From positions 65,007,269-65,071,268 of the forward strand of contig CM054143.1 in NCBI GenBank assembly GCA_028751875.1: a stretch of DNA of 64,000 bases. The letters run 5' to 3'. Below, piece by piece: positions 2,757 through 57,726 of this stretch; the stretch's first letter is position 1; the number at the start of each line of letters is the position of its first letter. The translations under genes and the position numbers were made by a program. The notes beneath the pieces were generated by a model, which had not been told where the DNA came from, made no database searches, and saw nothing but the letters and a program-made list of their open reading frames with translations. The DNA is from Rapana venosa (taxonomy: Eukaryota; Mollusca; Gastropoda; Neogastropoda; Muricidae).

Positions 2757-3044
2757 TCCTGCCTTAAAATGCTGCCAGCTTCAGTCATGACAAGCCCCTA
2801 GTGTAACACTCTACTTCCCTTTAAAGGAGAAACAATCCTCTAAATGGGTTAAGTTGTTGTATTTACGTTCCATTGGAGATTTCCGATTTAGGGACTGTAC
2901 CTCTGAAGTTGGAGTATGGCTGTCTATAATGGCCAGGCATTCTACAAGAGTCATACATACAAACATTTCATCCAGTGTATACTTAAATGGTCTCACTGTG
3001 ATTTGCAAGTGTGAGGACTGGGTCAGAGTGCATTTTTATATTTG

Positions 3045-3934
3045 CTGGATCAGTCAGCATTGGTGGCAGACCGATCACAAACCTCCGCTTCGCAGATGAC
3101 ATTGATGGAATAGCAGGATCAGAAAAAGAGCTTGCCAGCCTAACAGAACACTTGAATAAGGCCTCCAAAACATACGGCATGGAAATCAGTGCAGAGAAGA
3201 CCAAACTGATGACTAATAACACCAACGGCATTAGCACTGATATCAGGGTTAATGACCAGAAGCTGGAAACAGTTCAAAGCTTCAAGTACCTGGGAGCCAT
3301 TGTATCAGACCAGGGATCCAAGCCAGAAGTAGTATGCAGGACTGCACAGACAATAACAGCACTGTCGAAACTAAACACCATCTGGAGAGATAAGAATATC
3401 TCACTTATCTCCAAGATCAGACTAATGCGCTCCCTTGTCATATCCATATTTCTGTATGCCTGTGAATCATGGACCCTGACTGCAGATTTGGAGAGAAGAG
3501 TACAGGTGGTGGAGATGAGATGCTTTCGGAGACTCCTTGGCATCTCCTACAAAGACCACATAAGCAACGAAAGCGTGCATAACAGAATCCAGCAAACCAT
3601 TGGACCCTATGAGAACCTTCTAAGGATCGTGAAAAAGCGTAAACTTAAATGGTATGGGCATGTCACAAGATCCAAAGGACTTGCAAAGACAGTTTTACAA
3701 GGCACTGTCCAAGGAGGAAGAAGAAGAGGCAGACCAAGGAAGAGCTGGGAGGATAACGTCAGCGAATGGACAGGCCTAGAACTCAACAAAACCCTGAGAA
3801 AGGCAGAACAGAGAGAGGAATGGAGGGAACTGGTTATTGAGTCTTTGAGGGTGCCCCCACGGTCGTCAGACTACGGGACAGATAGATAGATAATTGCTGG
3901 TGACCCCCAGGGTGTTAAGCTGGGGAATGTCATC

Positions 3935-7136: not shown

Positions 7137-7770
7137 TAATCGTTGAAGGGAGTGGATAGATGTTGCTGGAAGACCAGCTAAAAGAGAATTGCAATAGTCC
7201 AGACGTGAGAGAATGAGAGACGCAACAAGTTTGGATGTTGCATCAGTGGACAGGTACTTTCGAATTGCACTGATACGCGTGATTGATAGTATCACGACTG
7301 GCAGGTCTGGGTGATGAATTTTTGCATAGAGAGTGTGTTGTCGATAACAACTCCTAGATACTTCACAGCAGTGGACAGAGGGACCGATGTATTACCGAGT
7401 TCTATTGAATTTGTTGTAACGGAAGAGAGTTTGTGTTTGGTCCCTACAAGCATGGCTTCGGTTTTATCTGCGTTTAACTGTAACTTGTTTTGTATCATCC
7501 AGTTTTGGATATCTTGAAAGCAGTAGGTCATATTTGTCAAGAGAGAAGGCAGATTTTCAGGTGTAACACTACTTTGAATCTGAGAGTAATCTGCGTAAAA
7601 ATGAAAGTTGATATGATGACGGTTTATTATATGTGATAGTGGAGCAGTATAGAGAGTGAAAAGAACAGGGCCGAGAACTGATCCCTGCGGGACAGCACAT
7701 TCCAGTTTGGCAGGTGTTGACTGTATCTTGTCCCAGTCCTCTACCAGTCCTTCAGGTGACACCATGACCT
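7137..7770 (-). pseudogene. CR1-like LINE reverse transcriptase fragment, frameshifted
   Basis: The minus strand encodes RT palm and thumb pieces of a CR1-group non-LTR element. From 7765: AVPQGSVLGPVLFTLYTAPL, then FHFYADYSQI, NADKTEAMLVGT and KYLGVVIDNTLSM. After a frame change near 7293: SRLDYCNSLLAGLPATSI and LQRLQNSAARL. The catalytic box reads YADY where YADD is expected, so one metal-binding aspartate is lost. The piece ends abruptly after the NSAARL block and lacks both element ends. It is a dead internal fragment that joins a TTTG-rich repeat at 7136. Confidence 0.85.
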
Positions 7771-8722: not shown

Positions 8723-8895
8723 AGGCCAGCGGGCAGACAGACCACTTGCAGAGTTAGAAGCACTGAGAAGACTAGGCACCAGGCATCCCGCCCACAAAGG
8801 AATGCAGAGAAGAGAGGTCCCCCTCCTGTTCAATGCTCAGTTAAGCAGTAAAGCAGGGGCCCTGGTTCCTTCCCTTTGCACCCCCCCCCCTACTT

Positions 8896-10588
8896 TGTGT
8901 GTGTGTGAACACGTGTATAGACAGAGACCATGTGTGTGAACACGTGCATAGACACAGACCATGTGTGTGAACACAAGCATAGACACAGACCATGCATGTG
9001 TGTGAACATGTGCATAGACAAAGACCATGTGCGTGAACACGTGCATAGACAAAGACCATGTGTGTGAGCACGTGCATAGACAGAGACCATGTGTGTGAAC
9101 ACGTGCATAGACACAGACCATGTGTGTGAACACGTGCATAGACATAGACCCTGTGTGTGATCACGTGCATAGACAGAGACCCTGTGTGATCACGTGCATA
9201 GACAAAGACCATGTGTGTGAACACGTGCATAGACAGAGACCGTGTGTGTGAACACGTGCATAGACACAGACCATGTGTGTGTGTGAACACGTGCATAGAC
9301 AAAGACCCTGTGTGTGAACACGTGCATAGACAGAGACCATGCATGTGTGTGAACACGTGCACAGACACAGACCTTGTGTGTGAACACGTGCATAGACAGA
9401 GACCATGTGCGTGAACACGTGCATAGACAAAGACCATGTGTGTGAGCACGTGCATAGACAGAGACCATGTGTGTGAACACGTGCATAGACAGAGACCATG
9501 CATGTGTGTGAACACGTGCACAGACACAGACCTTGTGTGTGAACACGTGCATAGACAGAGACCATGTGCGTGAACACGTGCATAGACAAAGACCATGTGT
9601 GTGAGCACGTGCATAGACAGAGACCATGTGTGTGAACACGTGCATAGACACAGACCCTGTGTGTGAACACGTGCATAGACACAGACCATGTGTGTGAACA
9701 CAAGCATAGACAGAGACCATGCATGTGTGTGAACATGTGCATAGACAAAGACCATGTGTGTGAACACGTGCATAGACACAGACCATGTGTGTGAACACAA
9801 GCATAGACAAGACCATGCATGTGTGTGAACATGTGCATAGACAAAGACCATGTGCGTGAACACGTGCATAGACAAAGACCATGTGTGTGAGCACGTGCAT
9901 AGACAGAGACCATGTGTGTGAACACGTGCATAGACAGAGACCCTGTGTGTGAACACGTGCATAGACAGACGACCATGTGGTGTGAACACGTGCATAGCAA
10001 GACCCATGTGTGTGAACACGTGCATAGACAGAGACCTCTGTTGTGAACACGTGCAAGACACAGACCCTGTGTGTGAACACGTGCATAGACAGAGACCTGT
10101 GGTGAACACGCATAACAAAGACCATGTGTGTGACACGTGCATAGACAGAGACCCTGTGTGAACACGTGCATAGACAGAGACCATGTGTGTAAATACGTGC
10201 ATAGGCAGAGACCATGTGTGTGAACACGTGCATAGACAGAGACCGTGTGTGTGAACACGTGCATAGACAGAGACCATGTGTGTGAACACGTGCATAGACA
10301 CAGACCATGTGTGTGAACACAAGCATAGACACAGACCATGTGTGTAAATACGTACATAGAGACCATGCATGTGTGTGAACATGTGCATAGACAAAGACCA
10401 TGTGTGTGAGCACGTGCATAGACAAAGACAATGTGTGTGAGCACGTGCATAGACAAAGACCATGTGTGTGAGCACGTGCATAGACAAAGACCATGTGTGT
10501 GAACACATGCATAGACAAAGACCATGTGTGTGAACACATGCATAGACAAACAGACCCTGTGTGTTCATACGTGCACAGACAGACATGT
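8896..10588. repeat. 31-bp minisatellite, about 54 units
   Basis: The unit is close to GTGTGTGAACACGTGCATAG plus ACACAGACCAT. Spacing is 31 bp, with a 35-bp variant in which GCATG is repeated. Most units contain the palindrome CACGTG. Because 31 is not a multiple of three, the array is open in all three minus-strand frames at once, which explains ORFs of 449 to 631 codons with no coding meaning. Units at about 9960-10140 carry many single-base losses. Confidence 0.95.
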
Positions 10589-10599
10589 AAAAACCGACT

Positions 10600-10756
10600 G
10601 TTTTGTATTGTATCGTCTTTGTATTGGAACAGTCTTGTATTGTTTTTTTGTTGGCTTTTTTATCATACTGCATTGTATAGTATAGTATTTTATTATATTG
10701 TACTGCATTGTAGAGTACCGTACAGCAGCGCTGCATTGACTTATTTTGTATTGTTT
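10600..10756. repeat. Degenerate GTATT pentanucleotide tract
   Basis: TTGTATTG-type pentamers with point changes, the reverse complement of the AATAC arrays at 24700 and 51375. Confidence 0.65.
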
Positions 10757-11132
10757 GCCATTTTCAGTCACAGCAGACTTCTCTGCCTGAAATTCTGGCA
10801 ACTCATGTGGGAGAGGGCCCCCTCACCACAAGTGCAGCGCCACCCATTATTCTATAATTATCTGTTTTCCTACCTGTATGTCTGTGCATCTGTTTCCATA
10901 CCAGAGTGGATTTTTCTACTCATGATTTTGCCAGGGAAATCTCTCCTGTTGCCGTAGATATTCTTCCGTGTGCTGAATATGCGCTGCACACGGGACCTTT
11001 GTTTGTTGACAAGCATCCAGACCACTACTCAAGGTCTAGTGCTGTTGATGGTGAAAAGGCTCAGTTTTAGAACAGGGTTCAAAACCCCAACTACTCACCT
11101 TCCAGACAGGTGCACAACTTCTAAACCCCTGA
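10757..11132 (-). mobile_element. tRNA-derived SINE, family S4
   Basis: Shares with 51795-52166 the blocks CACAAG.GCAGCGCCACC, ATTTTGCCAGGGA (reverse sense) and GCACACGGGAC, with the TCCAGACCACTACTCA block. The tRNA-like head on the minus strand ends in GTTTTGAACCCTG, a B-box relic. Confidence 0.65.
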
Positions 11133-19710: not shown

Positions 19711-19985
19711 TCAGGGGGCGTCACTCAGCTGGTCGGCCAGGTCGCCGTGCCCCAGGTCGGCCAGCGCCTGGGCCAGCGCGCTGAGGGTGGCCGGGTGGGA
19801 CGTCTCCATCCACTTGCGCAGCATCTGGCGGTTCACTTCCTGCTGGCCCTCGGCGCGGAAGTCCAGGTAGACCTGGTCCAGGGAGGAGTCCACAAGGCCG
19901 AGTCGGCGCCCCAGGGAGCGCCAGTCCTTGGCCAGCCCCCTGCCCACCAGGGCCAGGTGCCGCTCCTCAGGCCTGGCCTGGCTTC
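19711..19985 (-). CDS. Terminal exon encoding a death domain (RIPK1/IMD-like gene, exon 3 of those seen)
   Basis: Minus-strand exon of 275 nt: an acceptor (CTGTGGGCAG, intron end 19986), 2 nt finishing a split codon, 90 codons and TGA at 19711-19713. The protein is one complete death domain of about 85 residues: RPEERHLALVGRGLAKDW (helix 1-2), RSLGRRLGLVDSSLDQV, DFRAEGQQEVNRQMLRKWME, then ATLSALAQALADLGHGDLAD. Conserved features are the Trp after KD, the RRLGL block, the QMLRKW block and the ATL..LA.AL..L...DLA helix pair, all typical of RIPK1, FADD-type and IMD death domains, which assemble signalling platforms in the cytosol. The phase-1 acceptor fits the phase-1 donor of the RHIM exon at 23683. 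It is very GC-rich beside AT-rich surroundings, as expected for conserved coding sequence. An extra small exon between the two cannot be excluded. Confidence 0.85.
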
Positions 19986-20085
19986 CTGCCCACAGGCGGC
20001 ACCCTGCGCTTGATCCCTCAGGCAGCGGAGCCAGGAGACCTGGTCCAGGGAGGGGGAGCAAGGGAGGAGCGGTGAACCCAGGACA

Positions 20086-20652
20086 GGGGGGAGCCTGAGG
20101 GACGCCGGTGATCACACAGGACCAGGGGGGAGCCATGAGGGACGCCTGGTCATACACACAGGACAGGGGGGAGCAATGGAGGCGCGTTGATACAACAGAC
20201 AGACAGGGGGGGAGCACATGGAGGGACGCCGGTGATACACACAGGACAGACAGGGGGGGAGCACATGGAGGGACGCCGGTGATACACACAGGACAGGGGG
20301 GGGAGCAATGGAGGGACGCGGTGATACACACAGGACAGGGGGGGGAGCACATGGAGGGACGCCGGTGATACACACAGGACAGGGGGGGGAGCAATGGAGG
20401 GACGCTGGTGATACACACAGGACAGGGGGGGGAGCAATGGAGGGACGCAGGTGATACACACAGGACAGACAGGGGGGGGAGCACATGGAGGGACGCCGGT
20501 GATACACACAGGACGACAGGGGGGGAGCACATGGAGGGACGCCGGTGATACACACAGGACAGGGGGGGGAGCAATGGAGGGACGCTGGTGATACACACAG
20601 GACAGACAGGGGGGGGAGCACATGGAGGGACGCCGGTGATACACACAGGACA
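20086..20652. repeat. 42-49-bp minisatellite, about 13 units, beside the death-domain exon
   Basis: The unit has GGGACGCCGGTGATACACAC, then AGGACAGACAGG, a G7-8 run and GAGCACATGGA. Units vary by presence of GACA and by CA versus nothing in GAGCACATG. Long open frames on the minus strand are repeat artefacts. It lies in the last intron of the death-domain gene, about 100 bp upstream of its acceptor, and supplies pyrimidine-rich sequence on the transcribed strand. Confidence 0.9.
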
Positions 20653-20997
20653 GAGGGGGGGGGGGGACAGCTTGGGGGATAGCCTGATGCGCTCCTGATC
20701 TGCTGACCCGGGGTTCCATTCCCGTTCAAGAGGATTTTTCTTCTAGAGTTAACATCAGTGCAGACTCCACTCTCCCAAAAAGTCTTTTAGATGAGACTAT
20801 AAACCGAGGTCCCGTGTGCAGACGCACGCAGAACATCTTGCGCATACGTTAAAACCCGTTCTGCTTTTTGGAAGAGTAGGCCATTGTGTGCCAGTGGGAA
20901 CGGATGACAAAATTTACAAAACTGCATACTCACAGAGACTGGATGAAAAAAAGCACACTAGTGCTTATTCCATTATCCTTGAAATAAAAGAATAAAA
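20653..20997 (+). mobile_element. tRNA-derived SINE, family S3, near full length
   Basis: Degraded head GGGGGATAGCCTGATGCGCT, B-box relic CGGGGTTCCATTCCCGTT, then GTTAACATCAGTGCAGACTC, AACATCTTGCGCATACGTTA, GTAGGCCATTGTGTG, GGGAACGGATGACAAAATTT and the tail AGTGCTTATTCCATTATCCT. Confidence 0.75.
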
Positions 20998-21216
20998 TAA
21001 TTAAAAAGATAAAGAAAGACAGGCCTAGCACCTATCTGTATGGCAGAGAGTGACAAAAGAGCTTGTGAAATAAACGGCACAAAACACAAATCCAGTCCCC
21101 AACCACCAAACCAATATGGATTTAAGCAATCATGCAGCAGATTTTTTTTTTTAATAAGGTGTCCTTGAAAAGATGCGTTTTGAGAAAATAATTTATTCAA
21201 ATTAAAAGTCTTACAG

Positions 21217-21440
21217 ACCAGTCACCTTGGTATAATGGTTAGTGCCTTGGGTTATGTACAGGAAGGTTGCAGGTTCAAATCCCACAAGAGGTATAGAGAT
21301 TCTTTTTACTATGGCCAGTTCCTATCCAGAGTGAGTTTGCTATGGGCTTTTTGGGAAGACTGGGACCACACAGTCAAGCTTCATCCATTTTACAAATGTG
21401 ATTTTGACAGCGTTGCTCAAATGACCTGACCAACACTGCA
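21217..21440 (+). mobile_element. tRNA-derived SINE, family S6
   Basis: Good polymerase III internal promoter: A box TGGTATAATGGTTAGTGCC and B box GGTTCAAATCCC with tRNA-like spacing. A body of about 150 bp with no match elsewhere in the window follows. The head does not fold as a full tRNA with a CCA-ready acceptor, so a functional tRNA gene is unlikely. Confidence 0.6.
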
Positions 21441-21483
21441 CATGTATGTATCTCTCGGGCCCGGTTAACACTGGGATATGTTA

Positions 21484-21536
21484 TGATAGGAAACATAGAG
21501 TACAGCGGTGATAGGAAACATAGAGTACAGTGGTAT
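21484..21536. repeat. 26-bp tandem duplication
   Basis: GATAGGAAACATAGAGTACA occurs twice in succession. Confidence 0.85.
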
Positions 21537-21797
21537 CACATAGTCACATGCACTTCCATACAGCATCACTGCATCCTCCTCCTCCTCACCACAGATCATT
21601 GCAATAAAAGAATGAAGAAAACTGTCTCTGATTCTGTGGCTGCTGTTTGGGGACCACACTGCCTGATGTAGAACAGACGTCTCTGCCTGGGTTATTCTCC
21701 TGCATTACCTGAACTTACACCTGCGTGTTGGATGTCTGCTGCTTTACTGGTACTTGAGAATCTTCATCACAGACAGTAGCAGCCTGCTAAAAGGTCA

Positions 21798-22076
21798 AGG
21801 TGTTCACCAAACCTATGTGGTTGTTGAGGAGCGAGGCGTCAGAGACCTCAGCTTCTCTGGAGCCAGCATATTGAGGGCGGCGCCCATCTCCTCTCCTTCG
21901 CCACTTTACCTTCCCTGACCCTAAACAGGAAGGTACCCATTTACAGCTGGGTGAACTGGGGGACTGTACTGAAGCCAAGATGCACAAATGGTCGCCCATC
22001 CACTTGGTAACCACGCTCAATGCTGATCTTAGCTTGGGGAAAGCGAGTGCTCTGACCACTGAGCTATCCCATCCTC
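21798..22076 (-). mobile_element. tRNA/5S hybrid SINE, family S1, near full length
   Basis: Minus-strand head GGATGGGATAGCTCAGTGGT, then the AGCGTGGTTACCAAGTGGAT block and the full body to the CATAGGT end. Abuts the 44-bp minisatellite at 22080. Confidence 0.8.
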
Positions 22077-22079
22077 TTA

Positions 22080-22296
22080 TAGTGTTTAAACATTGTGTTT
22101 TTGGTGACTGTTGGGTATGGATGTAGTGTTTAAACATTGTGTTTTTGGTGACTGTTGGGTATGGATGAAGTGTTTAAACATTGTGTTTTTGGTGACTGTT
22201 GGGTATGGATGTAGTGTTTAAACATTGTGTTTTTGGTGACTGTTGGGTATGGATGAAGTGTTTAAACATTGTGTTTTTGGTGACTGTTGGGTATGG
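22080..22296. repeat. 44-bp minisatellite, 5 units
   Basis: The near-identical unit contains AGTGTTTAAACATTGTGTTT and TTGGTGACTGTTGGGTATGG. Each unit carries the 8-bp palindrome GTTTAAAC. Confidence 0.95.
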
Positions 22297-22557
22297 TATC
22301 CATACCTGCACCTTTGCTGAGAACACATACCTGTTGTTCTACATGTCTTTAGGTATTTGAATTACTTTTTGCTACTAACCCCCTGAAATTGCATTTGTGT
22401 TGCTCTCTGTTCAGTTCTGAACATTGAACATTGTATCATTCAAATCTGCATGACAAAACAAAATAACACACAACTGAAAATGTGACCGTTTTTCTCTCTG
22501 TTGATGTACCAGTGGCAGTGTAATGTATGTTGGAGAATTGCTCCTCTACACGTGTTC

Positions 22558-23300
22558 AGTTAAACACCATAAGGACCAAAGTGATGCACGTGAATGGTAC
22601 AGCCACCCACCCCTCAGAATATCAAAATCAATGGACAGATCTGGAATATGTTTAAAATTTCAAATATCTAGGATCTGAAAAAGAGAATAATGGCTTCTGT
22701 CTACAAGACGTCGAGGCTAGAATCAGTATGGCCAAGCAAAAGATGATTCAGTTAAACCACATTTCAAAAGATAGAGGCATACCTGAAGATATCAAAAATA
22801 GAATTGTCAAGACAAACAATCTGGCCTGAGCGCTTTGATTTGTTGCTTTACAAGATTCAGCGCTATATAAATTCCATACATTATTATTATTATTGCTGTA
22901 TGGGTCAGAATCCTGGACACTTGAAAAATTGGAAAGAGACAAAATAAACACAGATAAAATGTGGTTATACAGGCAACTTCTCAGAGTCAGTCAGACAGGA
23001 GAACCAATGAAACCATTCTTGATGAACTCACAGTGCAAAGACAACTGTTGGCTGAAACTGCTCAGCACAGACTGAGAAACACACAGACAAATCTGATGAT
23101 GACGGTAGTTCTCCAAAGTAAGGTTGAGGGCAGAAGGAAAAGAGGCAGACCACCAACATCCTACATTGCCAACATCACTGAGGTCAGTGGTCTGGGAGGA
23201 GGGCTACAGGAGATGGTAGAACAGTAGAGACCGAGAGAGAAAGATGGCAAACCCTGGTGACATTGCCTAGAGTTGCTACCCATGACGGTGGATATGGAGA
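22558..23300 (+). pseudogene. LINE ORF2 C-terminal remnant, interrupted by a nested insertion
   Basis: Translated pieces follow a LINE RT thumb and C-terminus in order: TKVMHVNG, FKYLGSEKENNG, ARISMAKQKMIQLN, GIPEDIKNRIVK, then an unrelated insertion (22823-22895), then LLYGSESWTLEKLERDKIN, MWLYRQLLRVSQT, a frame change, ILDELTVQRQLL, KVEGRRKRGRPPTSYI and finally an ATHDGGYGE end. It comes from a different LINE family than 3045-3968 because its basic block differs. Frameshifts and the insertion make it a pseudogene. It lies in the intron between the RHIM and death-domain exons, in the opposite orientation to that gene. Confidence 0.85.
22823..22895 (-). mobile_element. Short TATATAGCGC-type element inserted in a LINE
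   Basis: About 73 bp: GAGCGCTTTGATTTGTTGCT, TTACAAGATTCAGCGC, TATATAAATTCCATAC and an (ATT)n end. It splits the LINE reading between RIVK and LLYG, so the insertion boundaries are known to within a few bases. The same unit occurs at 765 and 28047. Confidence 0.8.
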
Positions 23301-23682
23301 GAGTTGAGTTGAGATCTGCAATGTATCGCATGTCTGACAGCATGTGGAAAAGAATCTGTAAGTATTCACTATGTGTGCCTGTGCAATGGCAATGTATTTT
23401 GCAATCCATCTGACTTGAACTTTTCTTGATAATTATATATCGTAACATTTTATATGGTGTATCCTGAGGCTGAGTATGCAGAAAAGAAGCAAGAGAGAGA
23501 GAGAGAGGTAAGGGAAAAGGCAGAAACAATGGGAGGGATAGAAAAGAGGAAATTTCTGGGACAGGATGCCCAGAAAGTGAGGATATACTGAAGAAGCCCC
23601 TGGCATCCGCACAGGGAGAAAAATGAAAGTTAAAAATGTATTGCTTCGTTCTGGCACAAACTGAACACCCCTCCCCACTTAC

Positions 23683-23853
23683 TGGTGATAGCGTGGCGAT
23701 TTGGAACGAAGGGCCGGTGAGCAGCAGGGAAAGAGGCCCCGCCGCTGCCCTGGTAAACCGTCATGGTGTTGGTGTGGCCGATCTGCAGCTGCACTCCGGC
23801 CTTGGCGTGCTGCGCCAGTCCTGTGGCCACGATAGTGCCGCGACCCTCGCCAC
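23683..23853 (-). CDS. Internal exon encoding a RHIM motif (RIPK1/IMD-like gene, exon 2 of those seen)
   Basis: 171-nt minus-strand exon with acceptor TGTGGTGCAG (intron end 23854) and donor GTAAGT at 23682, phase 1 at both ends. It encodes 57 residues containing VATGLAQHAKAG, the RHIM-like VQLQIGHTNTMTVY and GSGGASFPAAHRPF. RHIM motifs have an (I/V)Q(V/I/L)G core followed by a conserved Asn-x-Met. Here the core is LQIG with N-T-M six residues on, and beta-prone, Gly/Ser-rich flanks. RHIMs form amyloid cross-beta fibres that join RIPK1, RIPK3, TRIF and ZBP1 in vertebrates, and cryptic RHIMs act in the insect IMD pathway. The exon joins in frame to 26308 upstream and 19985 downstream. The Leu at the first core position is unusual. 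High GC fits coding sequence. Confidence 0.75.
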
Positions 23854-24121
23854 CTGCACCACACAGTCACAACAATACAACCAACCATACTACTCCCCAC
23901 CCCCCACCCCCTCCCTTCACCTGTAACACACAGTTACAACAATCCAAAGAAACACTTCATTATTATTTCAAAATCAGACACTTTATAGGTAAAAACTTTA
24001 TACAAACACTTTATCACCTCATTTCATACTGACACTTTATTATCTCAAAACAACCACTTTTTAAAAAAAATCTCAAAACATATAAAATTCATGTGGGTCA
24101 CAAGCAGAGCTGAAAAACAAT

Positions 24122-24130
24122 CATATATAC

Positions 24131-24161
<31 letters not shown>

Positions 24162-24245
24162 TATACATACACACATATCTATATATATATATACACACAC
24201 AGACATACATACAGATATATATATATATACACACACACATATATA
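24122..24245. repeat. (TA)n / (CA)n compound microsatellite
   Basis: Alternating TA and CA blocks with ACAT interruptions. Confidence 0.9.
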
Positions 24246-24295
24246 GTTTTAGGCAAAATGTTTCCCGAACAGTTTATCATAAACACTGCTGACAC

Positions 24296-24545
24296 ACAGT
24301 GGATCAGTGGTCTAGAGGTAATGCACCTGTCTATAAAGCAGGAAGTCTCGGGTTCGATCCCTGCTTTAAACCCAAGCTTTCCCTCATCCAAACACAGCGT
24401 GGTCTGGATGCTAGTCTATTGGATGACAAGATAACCCCAAAGTCGCATGTACAACACACATTGAACACACGCAAACGAAAGAACCCATGAAACAGAGTTG
24501 TCCCCAGCAAACTCTGCCCAAGAAAAAACCCCACCCAGTCTCATA
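24296..24545 (+). mobile_element. tRNA-derived SINE, family S5
   Basis: A-box region TCAGTGGTCTAGAGGTAATG and a perfect B box GGGTTCGATCC, then the body with CTAGTCTATTGGATGACAAG and AACAGAGTTGTCCCCAGCAA shared with 1076-1366. The acceptor-stem halves do not pair, so it is not a working tRNA gene. Confidence 0.75.
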
Positions 24546-24699
24546 GGGAAATAGATGCAGATGCAGACACAAGGTTGTTTCTTCTGAATTTAAAGAAGGA
24601 ACAAGAAGTGGCTCTGCTTTAGCAGCAACACGCATTCCCCTGGGAGAGCAGCCTGAAGTTCCTGCACAGACATTGGCCAGGCCGGGATGGGGTATTCAA

Positions 24700-25057
24700 C
24701 ACAATACAGTACAATACAATATGGTACAATACAATACAGAATAGTACAGTGCAACACGACACAGTACAGTATAATACAATACAGTGCAATAAATACAATT
24801 AAATGCAATACAATACAAAACAACATGAGAAAGTACACCACAATACAACACAGTACAGAAACATACATTACCACACAGTACAATGCAATACAGTACAATA
24901 CAATACAATAAGTACAATACAATACAGCACAGTACAATACAACATAGTACAATACCATACAGTAGTAAAATAAAGTAAATATAATATAGTACAATACAAC
25001 ACAATACAACACAGTACAACAATACTAAACAATACAACACAGTACAACACAATACAT
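24700..25057. repeat. AATAC/ACAAT pentanucleotide array
   Basis: Degenerate (TACAA)n array, interrupted at 25058 by an S1 SINE and resuming at 25344-25400. Confidence 0.9.
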
Positions 25058-25343
25058 GGGGCCGGGATAGCTCAGTGGTCGGAGCACTCGCTTTCTCTAG
25101 TTAAGGTTAAGCAGCATCAAGCATGGTTACCACTTGGATGGGTGACCATTTGCACGCCTTGGCTTCAGTACAGTCTCGCAGTTCACCCAGCTGTAAATGG
25201 GTACCTGCCTCTTTAGGGTCAGGGAAGGTAAAGCTGCAAGGGAGAGGAGATGGGAGCCGCCCTCAATATGCTGGCCCCTTGAGAAGTGAGGTCTCTAATG
25301 CCTCAATCCCCTACAACCACATAAGTTATGGGACACCTTACCT
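25058..25343 (+). mobile_element. tRNA/5S hybrid SINE, family S1, full length, inside an AATAC array
   Basis: The clearest copy. Head GGGGCCGGGATAGCTCAGTG (tRNA A box), then the 5S-like block TTAAGCAGCATCAAGCATGG and TTACCACTTGGATGGGTGACC, the GGTACCTGCC block, the CCGCCCTCAATATGCTGGCC block and the end TTATGGGACACCTTACC. The array continues on both sides, so this is a clean insertion. Confidence 0.85.
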
Positions 25344-25400
25344 TACAATACAATACAAAACAGTACAATATAATAGAGTATAACACAATACAATGAAATG

Positions 25401-26205
25401 CAACACACATCCCATGAAATTTCCAGTGAAGTATTCAGTAATCAGCTGTTTGGATTGATTTAAAAACAAACAAACATATAGATGACAATATCTTTTGCTA
25501 TGTTTGCATCCAGAATCACATTCTAAGCATCTTGCAGTTGATTTCTTGATGGGTTGCTCATTTATCGTTGTTGTTATTATTCTATTATACATCAACTGGA
25601 AACTGGGAGGAGGCATTTTACCATCAGCTAATCAGTCCTTTGGTTTTTGTTGTTACAACTGTTCATATTGTTAAACATTCCTCTGCTTAACATTATGGGG
25701 GTCAGTTGTTCTTTCCTTATTGGTCTTATTATCATACTATACATCACTTGGAATCACAGGTCAGGTTTGTTGTAATTGTTGTTGCTTTAACAAACTGTTC
25801 TTTTATGTTAGTATTGTTACTGCTTTGCTTACACTGTGTGGTATGTCAGGTACCTTGCAATTATTTCCTCATCAATTTTTCTGTCACCACTGTCTTGCTA
25901 TTACAGCATATTTACGATAATTATCACTTGGAATCAAATGGCCTGCATCATATCATTGTTGATCTATTTACCCTTAGTGATTATTTATATCATTTTAAAT
26001 TATTTCATTTTACTTAAGTTTGACATGTCATCACACATCACTTTACAAAAAAATCTTTCATAATTGTTCTTACTAATATTCTTCTTCTCATGTGTCTAAG
26101 GTCTGTTCACTATGAGATGATTCAGACACTTATTTTCAAACTAATGTATGTCGATAATTTTTAAAAAACCCAAGAAAGATGATGATAATGATGGCAGGGT
26201 GTAAA
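25401..26205. other. AT-rich intronic stretch
   Basis: Between the RHIM exon and the Pro-rich exon of the minus-strand gene. No repeat unit or exon is recognised. Confidence 0.45.
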
Positions 26206-26207
26206 GG

Positions 26208-26219
26208 GTGTGTGTGTAC

Positions 26220-26262
<43 letters not shown>
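26208..26262. repeat. (GT)n-(TA)n microsatellite
   Basis: GT array followed by a TA array, 45 bp downstream of an exon donor on the minus strand. Confidence 0.95.
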
Positions 26263-26307
26263 GAATATCTAACCAAAAATATATATGTATATTAATAAAC
26301 ACATCAC

Positions 26308-26660
26308 CTGGAATCACAATTTTGTCAGGTATACTGTCACCCCCAGTATAAATTACACTCCCTGCACCCTGATTCAACTGCGGCGCTGCTGCTGCCGCTG
26401 CTGGAGGTGGTGGTGGTCGTCGTGGTTGGGAAGGCTCAAACCGCACAGCATCTGTGGCCAAGCTGTCCTGAGCCGTGTTTCGATTCTGCAGATCTTCCAC
26501 AGACACCTCCTGCCCAGTCATGTCAGCGTCACCAAGGTCCTCGGTGCACTGGACAGGGCTCCGCGCCTGCACACCACAGCCATCTGTCCTACTCTGCACT
26601 GCCGGCCTCTGCTGCCCAGCCCTGGCACCTCTTCTTCCTTCCCCTTGTGAAGGAGGTGCT
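26308..26660 (-). CDS. Pro/Ala-rich exon of the RIPK1/IMD-like gene (5' boundary uncertain)
   Basis: The minus-strand reading frame ends at donor CCAG/GTGATG (intron start 26307) in phase 1, matching the phase-1 acceptor of the RHIM exon. It encodes VQCTEDLGDADMTGQEVS, NRNTAQDSLATDAVRFEPSQ, a P5/A6 run in PRRPPPPPAAAAAAP, then SVIYTGGDS and IPDKIVIPG. The composition suits the flexible linker that precedes a RHIM. Upstream the frame meets a stop near 26685, so the acceptor lies between there and about 26600. A better-looking acceptor (GGGCTTCAG, exon from 26731) opens another frame reading LWDKTFVPEEKSLSVIAQHL, which would need a one-base correction to join. Which is right cannot be settled from sequence alone. 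No kinase residues appear. Confidence 0.55.
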
Positions 26661-53985: not shown

Positions 53986-54485
53986 NNNNNNNNNNNNNNN
54001 NNNNNNNNNNNNNNNNNNNNNNNNNNNNNNNNNNNNNNNNNNNNNNNNNNNNNNNNNNNNNNNNNNNNNNNNNNNNNNNNNNNNNNNNNNNNNNNNNNNN
54101 NNNNNNNNNNNNNNNNNNNNNNNNNNNNNNNNNNNNNNNNNNNNNNNNNNNNNNNNNNNNNNNNNNNNNNNNNNNNNNNNNNNNNNNNNNNNNNNNNNNN
54201 NNNNNNNNNNNNNNNNNNNNNNNNNNNNNNNNNNNNNNNNNNNNNNNNNNNNNNNNNNNNNNNNNNNNNNNNNNNNNNNNNNNNNNNNNNNNNNNNNNNN
54301 NNNNNNNNNNNNNNNNNNNNNNNNNNNNNNNNNNNNNNNNNNNNNNNNNNNNNNNNNNNNNNNNNNNNNNNNNNNNNNNNNNNNNNNNNNNNNNNNNNNN
54401 NNNNNNNNNNNNNNNNNNNNNNNNNNNNNNNNNNNNNNNNNNNNNNNNNNNNNNNNNNNNNNNNNNNNNNNNNNNNNNNNNNNNN
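53986..54485. other. Assembly gap, exactly 500 N
   Basis: A round number of Ns suggests a scaffolding placeholder of unknown true size. It lies between two unrelated tandem arrays. Confidence 0.98.
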
Positions 54486-54530: not shown

Positions 54531-55540
54531 GGAATTTTGATCTGTGGTTTTAGACATAATGATTGTGGTTTTAGACAATAAATGATATGGGTTTTGAAAA
54601 TAAAAGATCTGGGTTTTTTGAACATAATGATATGTGGTTTTGGCCCAAAAATTTAATCGTGGTTTTTGAAAATAAATGATTGGTGGTTTTGGACAATAAA
54701 GATCGGGTGGTTTTTTGAACTAAATGATATGTGGTTTTGGACAATAAATATCTGTGGTTTTGAAAACAAATGAATGATCTGTGTGGTTTTGTGACAATTA
54801 TTGATCTGTGGTTTTGACAATAAATGATCTGTGGTTTTGAACAATAAATGATCTGTGGTTTTAGACAATAAATGCTATGTGGTTTTAAAACAATAAATGA
54901 TATGTGGTTTTGGACAATAAAATAATCTGTGGTTTTAGACAATAAATGATCTGTGGTTTGGACAATAAATGATCTGTGGTTTTAAGAACAATGAAATGAT
55001 ATGTGGTTTTGGACAATAAATGATCTGTGGTTTTGAACAATAATATGTGGTTTTAACAATAAATGCAAGTGGTTTTGGACAATAAATATCTTGGTTTTGG
55101 AACAAAAAATGATCTGTGGTTTTAGTACAATAAATGCTATGTGGTTTAGGTCAATGAATGATATGGGGTTTTTGGACAATGAATGATATGTGGTTTTAGA
55201 CAATAAATAATATGTGGTTTTGGACAAAAAATATATGTGTTTTGGACAAGGATGATCTGTGGTTTTGGACAATAATGATCTGTGAGTTTTAGACAATAAA
55301 AATTGATTTAGACAAAAAATCAAAGTGTTTTGACAATGAAGATATGGTTTTGGACCAACATGATCTTGAGTATTGGTTAGACAATAACAGAATGTAGGTA
55401 CGAGCAATGAAGATATGGTTTAGGACAATGAAGATATGTGGTTAGCGAACAAAAATGTTGGACAACAAATGATGATGTGTTGGACAGGAAGATCGTGGTT
55501 TTGACAATGAATGATCTTGATTTTGGACAAAAAAATGCTG
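54531..55540. repeat. 24-bp minisatellite, about 40 units, indel-rich
   Basis: Unit near GGTTTTGGACAATAAATGAT plus CTGT. Lengths range from about 20 to 28 bp because of scattered indels, more in the half near the gap and near 55400. Confidence 0.9.
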
Positions 55541-55619
55541 ACTTAGAAACGCAACACTTGACTATGACAGACATGGAGGGAGACCAGCACCTTATTGACG
55601 GGTAACAGACGCACAACAG

Positions 55620-57110
55620 GCAGAAGACGGACACGTAGACAGACGGACGGGCAAGACAGACGGACGGACGGGCAGACAGACAGACGGACGGACGAGGCAG
55701 ACAGACAGACGGACGGACGGGAGGACAGACGGACTGGGCACGGACAGACAGACGGCAGCAGGACAGACAGACGGACGGGCAGACAGACAGACGGACGGAC
55801 GGGCAGACAGACAGAACGGACGGGCAGACAGACAACGGACGGACGGGCAGACAGACAGACGGACGGGCAGACAGACGGACGGTCGGCAGACAGACAGACG
55901 GAAACAGACAGACGGACGGACGGGCAGACAGACAAACGGACGGGCAGACAGACAGACAGACGGACGGGCAGACAGACAGAACGGACGGGCAGACAGACAG
56001 ACGGACGGGCAGACAGACAGACGGACGGACGGGCAGACAGACAGGACGGACGGGCAGACAGACAGACGGACGGGCAAGACAGACAGACGGGACGGGCAGA
56101 CAGACAGACGGACAGACAGACAGACGAGACGGACAGGCAGACAGACGGACAGACAGCGACGGACGGGAGGCAGACAGACGACGGACGGGCAGACAGACAG
56201 ACGACCAGACAGACAGACGGACAGGCAGACAGACAGAAGACGGACGGGCAGACAGACAGACGGACGGGCAGACAGACAGACGGACGGGCAGACAGACAGA
56301 CGGAGGGCAGACAGACAGACGGACGGGCAGACAGGACAGACAGACGGACAGACAGACAGACAGGACGGACAGACAGACGGACAGGCAGACAGACAGACGG
56401 ACAGACAGACAGACAGACGGACAGACAGACGGACAGCAGACAGACAGACGGACAGACAGACAGACAGACGAACAGACGACGGACAGACGGACGGGCAGAC
56501 AGACAGACGGCACGGGCAGACAGACAGACACGGACGGGCAGACCAGACAGACGGACGGACGGGCAGACAGACAGACGGACGGACAGACAGACAGACGGAC
56601 AGGCAGACAGACAGGACGACGGGCAGACAGACAGACAGACGGACAGGCAGACAGACAGACGGACGGGCAGACAGACAGACCGGAACGGACGGGGCAGACA
56701 GACAGACGGACGGGCAGACAGACAGACGGACAGGCAGACAGACAGACGGACGGACGGGCAGACAGGACGGGACGGGCAGACAGACAGACAGACGGACGGG
56801 CAGACAGACAAAACAGGACGGACAGGCAGACAGACAGACGGACAGGCAGACAGACAGACGGACGGGCAGACAGACAAGGACGCGGACGGGCAGACAGACA
56901 GACGGACGGACGGACGGGCAGACAGACAGACGGACGGACGGGCAGACAGACAGACGGACGGACGGGCAGACAGACGGACGGGCAGACAGACAGACGGACG
57001 GGCAGACAGACAGACGGACGGGCAGACAGACAGACAGACGGACAGACGGACAGACAGACAGACGGACAGGCAGACAGACAGACGGACAGACGGACAGACA
57101 GGAAAGAAGG
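55620..57110. repeat. GACA/GACG/GGGCA array
   Basis: About 1.5 kb of CAGACAGACGGACGGGCAGA-type units with period 16-20 bp and frequent single-base slips. Open frames of 500-750 codons here are artefacts. Confidence 0.95.
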
Positions 57111-57184
57111 CACGCAGACAAACGGGGAAACCTCCTGACATGCGCCTTCAGACCTTTCACCACAGAACAGCTGCTTGTCTTCCC

Positions 57185-57200
57185 TTCTGTTTCTTTGTCC

Positions 57201-57254
<54 letters not shown>

Positions 57255-57345
57255 CTGTCCGTCTGTCTGTCTGTCTGTCTGTCCATCTGTCTGTCCGTCT
57301 ACCTGTCTGTCTTCCTGTTTTTCTACCTGTCTGTTTGCCTCTGTC
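57185..57345. repeat. (TGTC)n array, inverted relative to 55620-57110
   Basis: CTGT/CCGT units, the reverse complement of the preceding array, 75-85 bp away. The two could form a long stem. Confidence 0.9.
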
Positions 57346-57356
57346 TGTTGTCTCTC

Positions 57357-57497
<141 letters not shown>

Positions 57498-57542
57498 ACC
57501 CCTTCCCCTCTCTCTCTCAAAACCTGGAAGTCTCTCCCCCAG

Positions 57543-57726
57543 CAGCCTAGTGGCGCCACATAGCTTTCGGCAGCAACAGCATACGCAAAACGAGAGCAGC
57601 CGGGCCAATGCCAACATTAAGCGAGCCCTTCAGGAGCACCTCCGGAGACACCTCCGCCTGAGTGCAATGCATCACCGGGCATTACCCTTTCAGACCACCA
57701 AAGCTGGACAGCGGCTGCCTGCTTAA
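57543..57726 (+). CDS. Possible exon after a strong pyrimidine tract, unknown product
   Basis: The poly-C/CT tract and TCTCTCCCCCAG form a textbook acceptor at 57540-57542. The following frame is open to TAA at 57724: SLVAPHSFRQQQHTQNES, SRANANIKRALQEHLRRHL, then HHRALPFQTTKAGQRLP. The middle is basic and helix-prone. It vaguely recalls the (V/I)KxxLQExL segment of class IIa HDAC linkers, but this is too short to call. The pyrimidine tract may simply be a microsatellite. Confidence 0.2.

Follow-up and report, generated by a model that had tools for sequence, protein, structure and literature searches.

Does a gene of the gastropod Rapana venosa in which a RHIM-like segment precedes a C-terminal death domain encode RIPK1 with a kinase that has escaped notice, or a short adaptor that does without one, as arthropod IMD does? 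The gene lies on the minus strand of a stretch of 64,000 nucleotides, here called the window (C10:65007269-65071268, where C10 is the window's contig; C2, C3, C13, C16, C20, C23, C33, and C1230 are likewise contigs of the source genome, which was searched over 2.28 Gb). An earlier note, made from the letters of the window, had described three exons there and had allowed for either an adaptor or a hidden kinase. We find that the locus is probably one of two paralogs for a short, kinase-free, IMD-like adaptor that combines an N-terminal Asp-Ala site, a RHIM-like segment, and a RIPK1-type death domain, and that would act through FADD and a caspase bearing death effector domains (DEDs).

A death-domain gene and its paralog

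Joining the exons at 26308/23853 and 23683/19985 yields a single open frame with two phase-1 junctions and GT..AG borders on the minus strand, as the earlier note had proposed, and exon order and phases are matched in a paralog on C16 (Table 1). The high GC content claimed for the exons is also borne out, at 0.58 (26581-26308), 0.65 (23853-23683), and 0.73 (19983-19714) compared with 0.43 for the window. The joined protein matches the Pfam Death family with 42.1 bits against a cut-off of 22.6 (E value 9.5e-11) and no other Pfam family above its cut-off, and a genome-wide scan puts the Death match at window 19720-19935. On this profile match, the C-terminal death domain that the note had recognized is certain. 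The closest PDB sequences to the window protein are RIPK1 death domains (2.6e-9), followed by FADD, TRADD, and PIDD at about 0.005-0.008, and the death domains of the window gene, of C16, and of P0001 (a sequence of 93 residues taken from a two-row alignment and consisting of a death domain only) all have RIPK1 as their best match among solved structures. Assignment of the window death domain to the RIPK1/IMD type is supported by these comparisons; NCBIfam gave no match for it or for P0003, a relative described below.

A search of the genome with the window death domain returned one strong match, at C16:22007768-22008025 on the minus strand (44% identical, 5.0e-20), the next two having an E value of 2.4. 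The match belongs to a gene of three exons with the order and phases of the window gene, and by this comparison the window gene is one of two paralogous genes in this mollusc. Aligned with each other, the window and C16 proteins show 35% identity, with exon C 44% identical and exon B just 20% identical, and window exon B used as a genome query matched nothing but itself. Between the two copies of exon C, the proportions of nonsynonymous and synonymous differences (pN 0.35, pS 0.50) give a dN/dS of about 0.57, which may be read as weak evidence of constraint, in a window copy whose GC content at third codon positions is strong (0.94).

The paralog also bears on the exon boundaries. Because similarity to C16 extends upstream to a phase 0 TGTGCAG acceptor, which precedes exon A in both copies, we take exon A to be internal and to open at 26566, and the start of a first exon at 26660 is rejected. 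The ATG at 26521 was rejected as a start codon too, since paralog similarity goes on upstream of it: ARSPVQCTEDL in the window resembles NFPVPVQCSEDV in C16 (PVQCTED and PVQCSED). For exon C, an acceptor after 20040, in the same phase and with the best pyrimidine tract by eye, was set aside, and the acceptor at 19986 is preferred because C16 exon C starts at the position matching 19985 in the alignment. The product of the window gene would be about 235-240 residues long. Just upstream of exon C, at window 20100-20690, lies a degraded minisatellite with a unit of roughly 42 bases by eye, and the open reading frame (ORF) of 343 residues that it keeps open is intron, not protein. Several near-identical units of about 60 bases (CCATACCCAACAGTCACC...) can also be seen by eye in the B-C intron, at window 22100-22320.

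Table 1. Coordinates of the exons and motifs of the window gene (window positions) and of its paralog (positions on contig C16).
Feature	Location	Coordinates	Strand	Remarks
Exon A, internal	window	26308..26566	(-)	N-terminal part, disordered and rich in Pro/Ala; phase 0 at the acceptor, phase 1 at the donor; from alignment with C16 exon A, P0002, and P0003, acceptor taken from the C16 paralog
Candidate caspase site LATD/AVRF, new N-terminal Ala	window	26438..26461	(-)	P0002, P0003, and C16 have Asp and Ala in the same alignment columns (six of seven settings)
Exon B, RHIM-like segment	window	23683..23853	(-)	phase 1 in and out; open frame, splice borders, and the same phases in C16
RHIM-like core LQIGHTNTMTV	window	23756..23788	(-)	core motif fit; no Pfam RHIM match
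Exon C, terminal, death domain and stop codon	window	19711..19985	(-)	Pfam Death 9.5e-11
Exon A of paralog	C16	22012430-22012208	(-)	phase 0 in, phase 1 out
Exon B of paralog	C16	22009462-22009301	(-)	phase 1 out
Exon C of paralog	C16	22008030-22007759	(-)	death domain

Short relatives and the N-terminal Asp-Ala site

Two further full-length proteins were found with the death-domain part of C16 as query, P0002 (219 residues, on a contig of 1,183 bases) and P0003 (223 residues; Babylonia areolata LOC143286135, an 'uncharacterized protein' at NCBI). A query of 219 residues from the window gene found no homologue. P0002 and P0003 both resemble the window gene in having homologous exons A, B, and C, an N-terminal Asp-Ala, and a Death domain, which is the only Pfam family above its cut-off in either. 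The earlier note had suggested looking among related proteins for RHIM plus Death with or without a kinase, and these two carry the death domain and no kinase. Their initial Met stands 3 and 4 residues, respectively, before the start of C16 exon A, as read from the alignment, and because it sits just before the exon A homology, proteins of the family that comprises P0002, P0003, C16, and the window gene would be about 220-240 residues long and lack a kinase. P0002 and P0003 go with the C16 copy, since their death domains are more similar to it (64/89 identical residues for P0002, 59/89 for P0003) than to the window copy (44/89 and 45/89); the window death domain is identical to P0001 at 47/88 and to C16 at 39/89 positions, and none of the relatives obtained is a sure orthologue of the window copy.

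Near the N terminus, LATD/AVRF in the window protein aligns with VQPD/AEKV in P0002, VQLD/AEIM in P0003, and VQPD/AERV in C16 (the slash marks the candidate cut), so that the Asp and Ala are shared by all four proteins, under six of seven MAFFT settings. The residues that would follow the cut, AVRF, presumably resemble an IAP-binding motif more than do the AEKV, AEIM, and AERV of the relatives. Insect IMD has the sites LEKD/A, LTTD/A, LETDA, and LKSDA (PMC6626034; this and the other papers are cited from excerpts). LATD/AVRF is a candidate caspase site placed as in insect IMD. Because the relatives are short and bear the N-terminal Asp-Ala, an IMD-like adaptor is favored over a RIPK1 with a hidden kinase. 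We file the gene as IMD-like, and not as IMD, because the death domain and the family length agree with IMD while the caspase site, the IAP motif, and the RHIM stay candidates.

Several results weigh against this reading. No first coding exon was found by pair comparisons of the window and C16 or by short-exon scans, which yielded only repeats, low complexity, or candidates without a clear decision. A small death-domain tree, built without IMD sequences, gave no clear grouping. The Asp-Ala alignment requires a 10-residue insertion in the window protein and breaks in one of the seven settings, and the motif L.[TKS]DA by itself is weak because it is frequent, with 2,201 of 300,000 shuffled versions of exon A containing it and 7 occurrences in 151,957 residues of ORFs, although its position and the shared columns add weight. 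A PGRP trigger is not supported, because just one Amidase_2 (PGRP-type) match, a weak one (E value 6.4e-4), was found in the genome. For the RHIM-like segment, the Pfam RHIM profile (PF12721) matched neither the joined window protein nor exon B at E values up to 10, nor any other protein scanned, relatives included, and the core is degraded in C16 (FVLSDENHIVY) and P0003 (FRMANETHTTV).

The alternative that survives best, though we consider it somewhat unlikely, is that a gastropod adaptor arose from RIPK1 by a kinase loss of its own, independent of arthropod IMD, and could function as IMD does while being a distinct gene. Kinase-bearing RIPK1 is reported in spiralians (PMC12119088), RIPK1 provides the closest solved death domain, and the window core retains the Gln (LQIG) that is missing from insect IMD (VHIG in Aedes; PMC9531809), all of which would fit such an origin. 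However, an N-terminal Asp-Ala site and a length as in insect IMD would then need convergence, and an imd gene occurs in the nemertean Lineus, so that a spiralian IMD is possible (PMC9835746).

The RHIM-like segment

The RHIM that the earlier note had assigned to the middle exon is a call made on a motif and not on a profile. A RHIM core reads hydrophobic-Gln-hydrophobic-Gly-x-x-Asn-x-Met-x-hydrophobic, and LQIGHTNTMTV in window exon B fits this pattern. The RHIM tetrad is given as V/I-Q-V/I-G, from which the window tetrad LQIG departs at its first position, and LQIG is itself a natural tetrad in amphibian and fish RIPK3 (PMC12119088). Expressed strictly, as [IVL]Q[IVL]G..N.[ML], the core turns up in 21 of 300,000 shuffled versions of exons A and B together and in 6 of 300,000 when exon B is shuffled by itself, and it is absent from 151,957 residues of stop-free minus-strand ORFs near the window and C16 loci; without the residues that follow it, the tetrad has 17 occurrences in these ORFs and appears in 3,137 of 100,000 shuffles. 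A looser core is found in two of the four proteins, the window protein (18/200,000 of its own shuffles) and P0002, where FVLGDENRMVI stands in register (66/200,000 of its own shuffles). The distance from core to death domain, about 36 residues, is close to the approximately 31 of human RIPK1.

Could a genuine death-domain adaptor match the RHIM core by chance? The motif was chosen after it had been seen, exon B differs strongly between the paralogs and has as its best PDB match a stretch of PLK4 (E value 0.054), and the core is missing from the C16 and Babylonia sequences, as given above. The earlier note had tied its RHIM to a profile hit in the middle exon, and the Pfam miss therefore counts against the RHIM on the note's own terms. 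Against a chance match stand the rarity of the strict core in shuffles, the natural occurrence of LQIG, the spacing to the death domain, and the looser core that P0002, a member of the other paralog group, has in register. We regard a chance match as unlikely, and a RHIM in the window copy as likely, not proven. The order of domains compared in the earlier note with RIPK1 or IMD thus holds for a RHIM-like motif followed by a RIPK1-type death domain, with the RHIM part identified by motif.

In a genome-wide scan with the Pfam RHIM profile, the window was not among the matches listed, and two matches fell below the cut-off, at C33:10791833 (E value 3.6) and C3:761551 (E value 7.2). The match on C33 (L009 970-1617) contains VQVGHNN and scores 19.3 bits, in a frame of 215 residues with no evident domain by inspection.

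Search for a kinase

A kinase profile was built from eight kinases of this genome; in a leave-one-out control it recovered 29 of 37 fifty-residue pieces and the catalytic-loop piece in all eight cases, a recall flattered by two of the eight being near copies. Applied to the minus strand of C10:65033000-65229100, some 195 kb of upstream sequence in which 15.5 kb read N, it returned nothing convincing (best E values 0.24 and 0.3), and the same was true of the minus strand of C16:22006268-22045300, with 9.5 kb of N (best E value 1.1). A catalytic-loop regular expression run on the C10 stretch had one plus-strand match, in a frame of only 12 residues. The Pfam family PF07714, searched over the genome with 146 of 712 candidates scored, gave at least 150 matches, none of those listed lying near C10:65.0-65.2 Mb or C16:22.0 Mb.

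That the gene is a RIPK1 orthologue like that of the zebra mussel, its kinase exons lying farther upstream, hidden in unreadable sequence, or overlooked, is improbable: it would suit the RIPK1-like death domain, the internal position of exon A (which implies at least one exon upstream), the unreadable part of the C10 stretch, and the kinase-bearing RIPK1 homologues of the zebra mussel and other spiralians (PMC12119088), but P0002 and P0003 begin just before the exon A homology and contain no N-terminal kinase such as RIPK1 would have, and none was found upstream of the window gene in what could be read. Since no kinase was found upstream and the relatives are without one, the window gene would most likely encode a kinase-free adaptor, and of the two possibilities left by the earlier note the adaptor is favored and the hidden RIPK1 kinase disfavored.

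Candidate partners and a proposed mechanism

Candidate partners for an IMD-like adaptor are present in the genome. On C2, a DED (72684930-72685178) and, 2.2 kb downstream of it on the same strand, a death domain (72682474-72682689) are arranged as in FADD, and C1230:12106-12606 (+), on a minor contig, encodes two adjacent DEDs in one open frame of 241 residues, which is caspase-8- or FLIP-like. By analogy with the order of events in the IMD pathway (PMC9496462), an upstream trigger would cluster the adaptor, and the RHIM-like segment might nucleate or join an amyloid-type assembly. The death domain would recruit FADD and a DED caspase, which would cut at the Asp-Ala site, and the new Ala N-terminus could then recruit an IAP ubiquitin ligase, whose ubiquitin chains would lead to NF-kB. 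Each functional step, including amyloid formation, cleavage, and IAP binding, is predicted, and control of NF-kB signaling or cell death by the window gene, which the earlier note had also suggested, would follow from them. The C-terminus of zebra mussel RIPK1 without its kinase activates NF-kB in human cells, an activity for which it needs its RHIM, and is therefore a precedent for the architecture of RHIM plus death domain considered here; mutation of the RHIM weakened or abolished NF-kB activation in the non-mammalian proteins tested (PMC12119088).

Two pairs of death domains with equal scores, at C13:21511313/21544493 (33 kb apart) and C20:2385360/2436203 (51 kb apart), look like tandem duplicates by score.

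Other features of the window and genome

Two frames in the window, at 3002-3889 (+; 295 residues) and 7292-7768 (-; 158 residues), resemble, on inspection by eye, reverse transcriptase of elements without long terminal repeats (non-LTR). Long simple-repeat frames, open in several reading frames, occupy 8841-10763 and 55377-57629 and are probably satellite DNA, and a run of 500 N at 53986-54485 resembles an assembly gap. Elsewhere in the genome, mollusc-type haemocyanin gave 14 matches in two clusters, on C23 and C33.

Significance and comparison with known systems

Published accounts of these pathways in molluscs differ. In the excerpts at hand, molluscs and brachiopods are said to have yielded neither the Imd adaptor nor RHIM-bearing PGRPs (PMC9835746, 2023), the RHIM is described as present in vertebrate RIP kinases only (PMC9573974), and Aplysia as having no RIPK (PMC9334734), while the zebra mussel is credited with a kinase-bearing RIPK1 that has a RHIM (PMC12119088). 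Among the open-licence papers listed in our searches, none mentions in its title or in the opening lines of its abstract a short mollusc protein with RHIM and death domain, although a mollusc IMD may carry a name in other literature. A short, kinase-free gene with a RHIM-like segment, a death domain, and Asp-Ala would supply a missing piece in the evolution of the IMD and TNF pathways. We put forward, tentatively, that a branch of IMD lacking the kinase may have persisted in molluscs in two paralogous copies. One would carry a RHIM with Gln, which could assemble together with amyloids of the RIPK1 type, and the RHIM of its partner would be degraded or cryptic. If this is true, the pair would bridge RIPK1 and IMD, and one could test whether kinase loss in RIPK1 gave rise to IMD before the split of arthropods and spiralians. 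The genes named here and the homologue of the C16 paralog in Babylonia, a farmed snail, can be put to the test.

Among known systems, FADD and TRADD are likewise death-domain adaptors, but they match the window protein in the PDB at E values of just about 0.005-0.008, and the window gene has neither a DED nor a TRADD N-domain. RIPK1, that of the zebra mussel included, shares with the window gene the order of RHIM then death domain and has the closest solved death domain, and it differs in the N-terminal kinase, which was found neither in the readable sequence upstream of the window gene nor in the relatives. Of these relatives, P0002 keeps the RHIM-like core and P0003 has it degraded, and both are nearer to C16 than to the window gene by identity. 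Arthropod IMD differs from the window gene in that insect IMD has a cryptic RHIM without Gln (PMC9531809, PMC9496462), VHIG in Aedes (PMC9531809), where the window copy has the Gln tetrad LQIG, and in that two paralogs are present here; orthology and a link to PGRP would be putative. The window gene appears to resemble IMD in being short (240-280 residues in insect IMD, according to the excerpts) and kinase-free, in carrying a death domain at its C-terminus, and in having a RHIM-like segment and a candidate Asp-Ala site near its N-terminus, in a genome that also holds FADD-like and DED partner genes.

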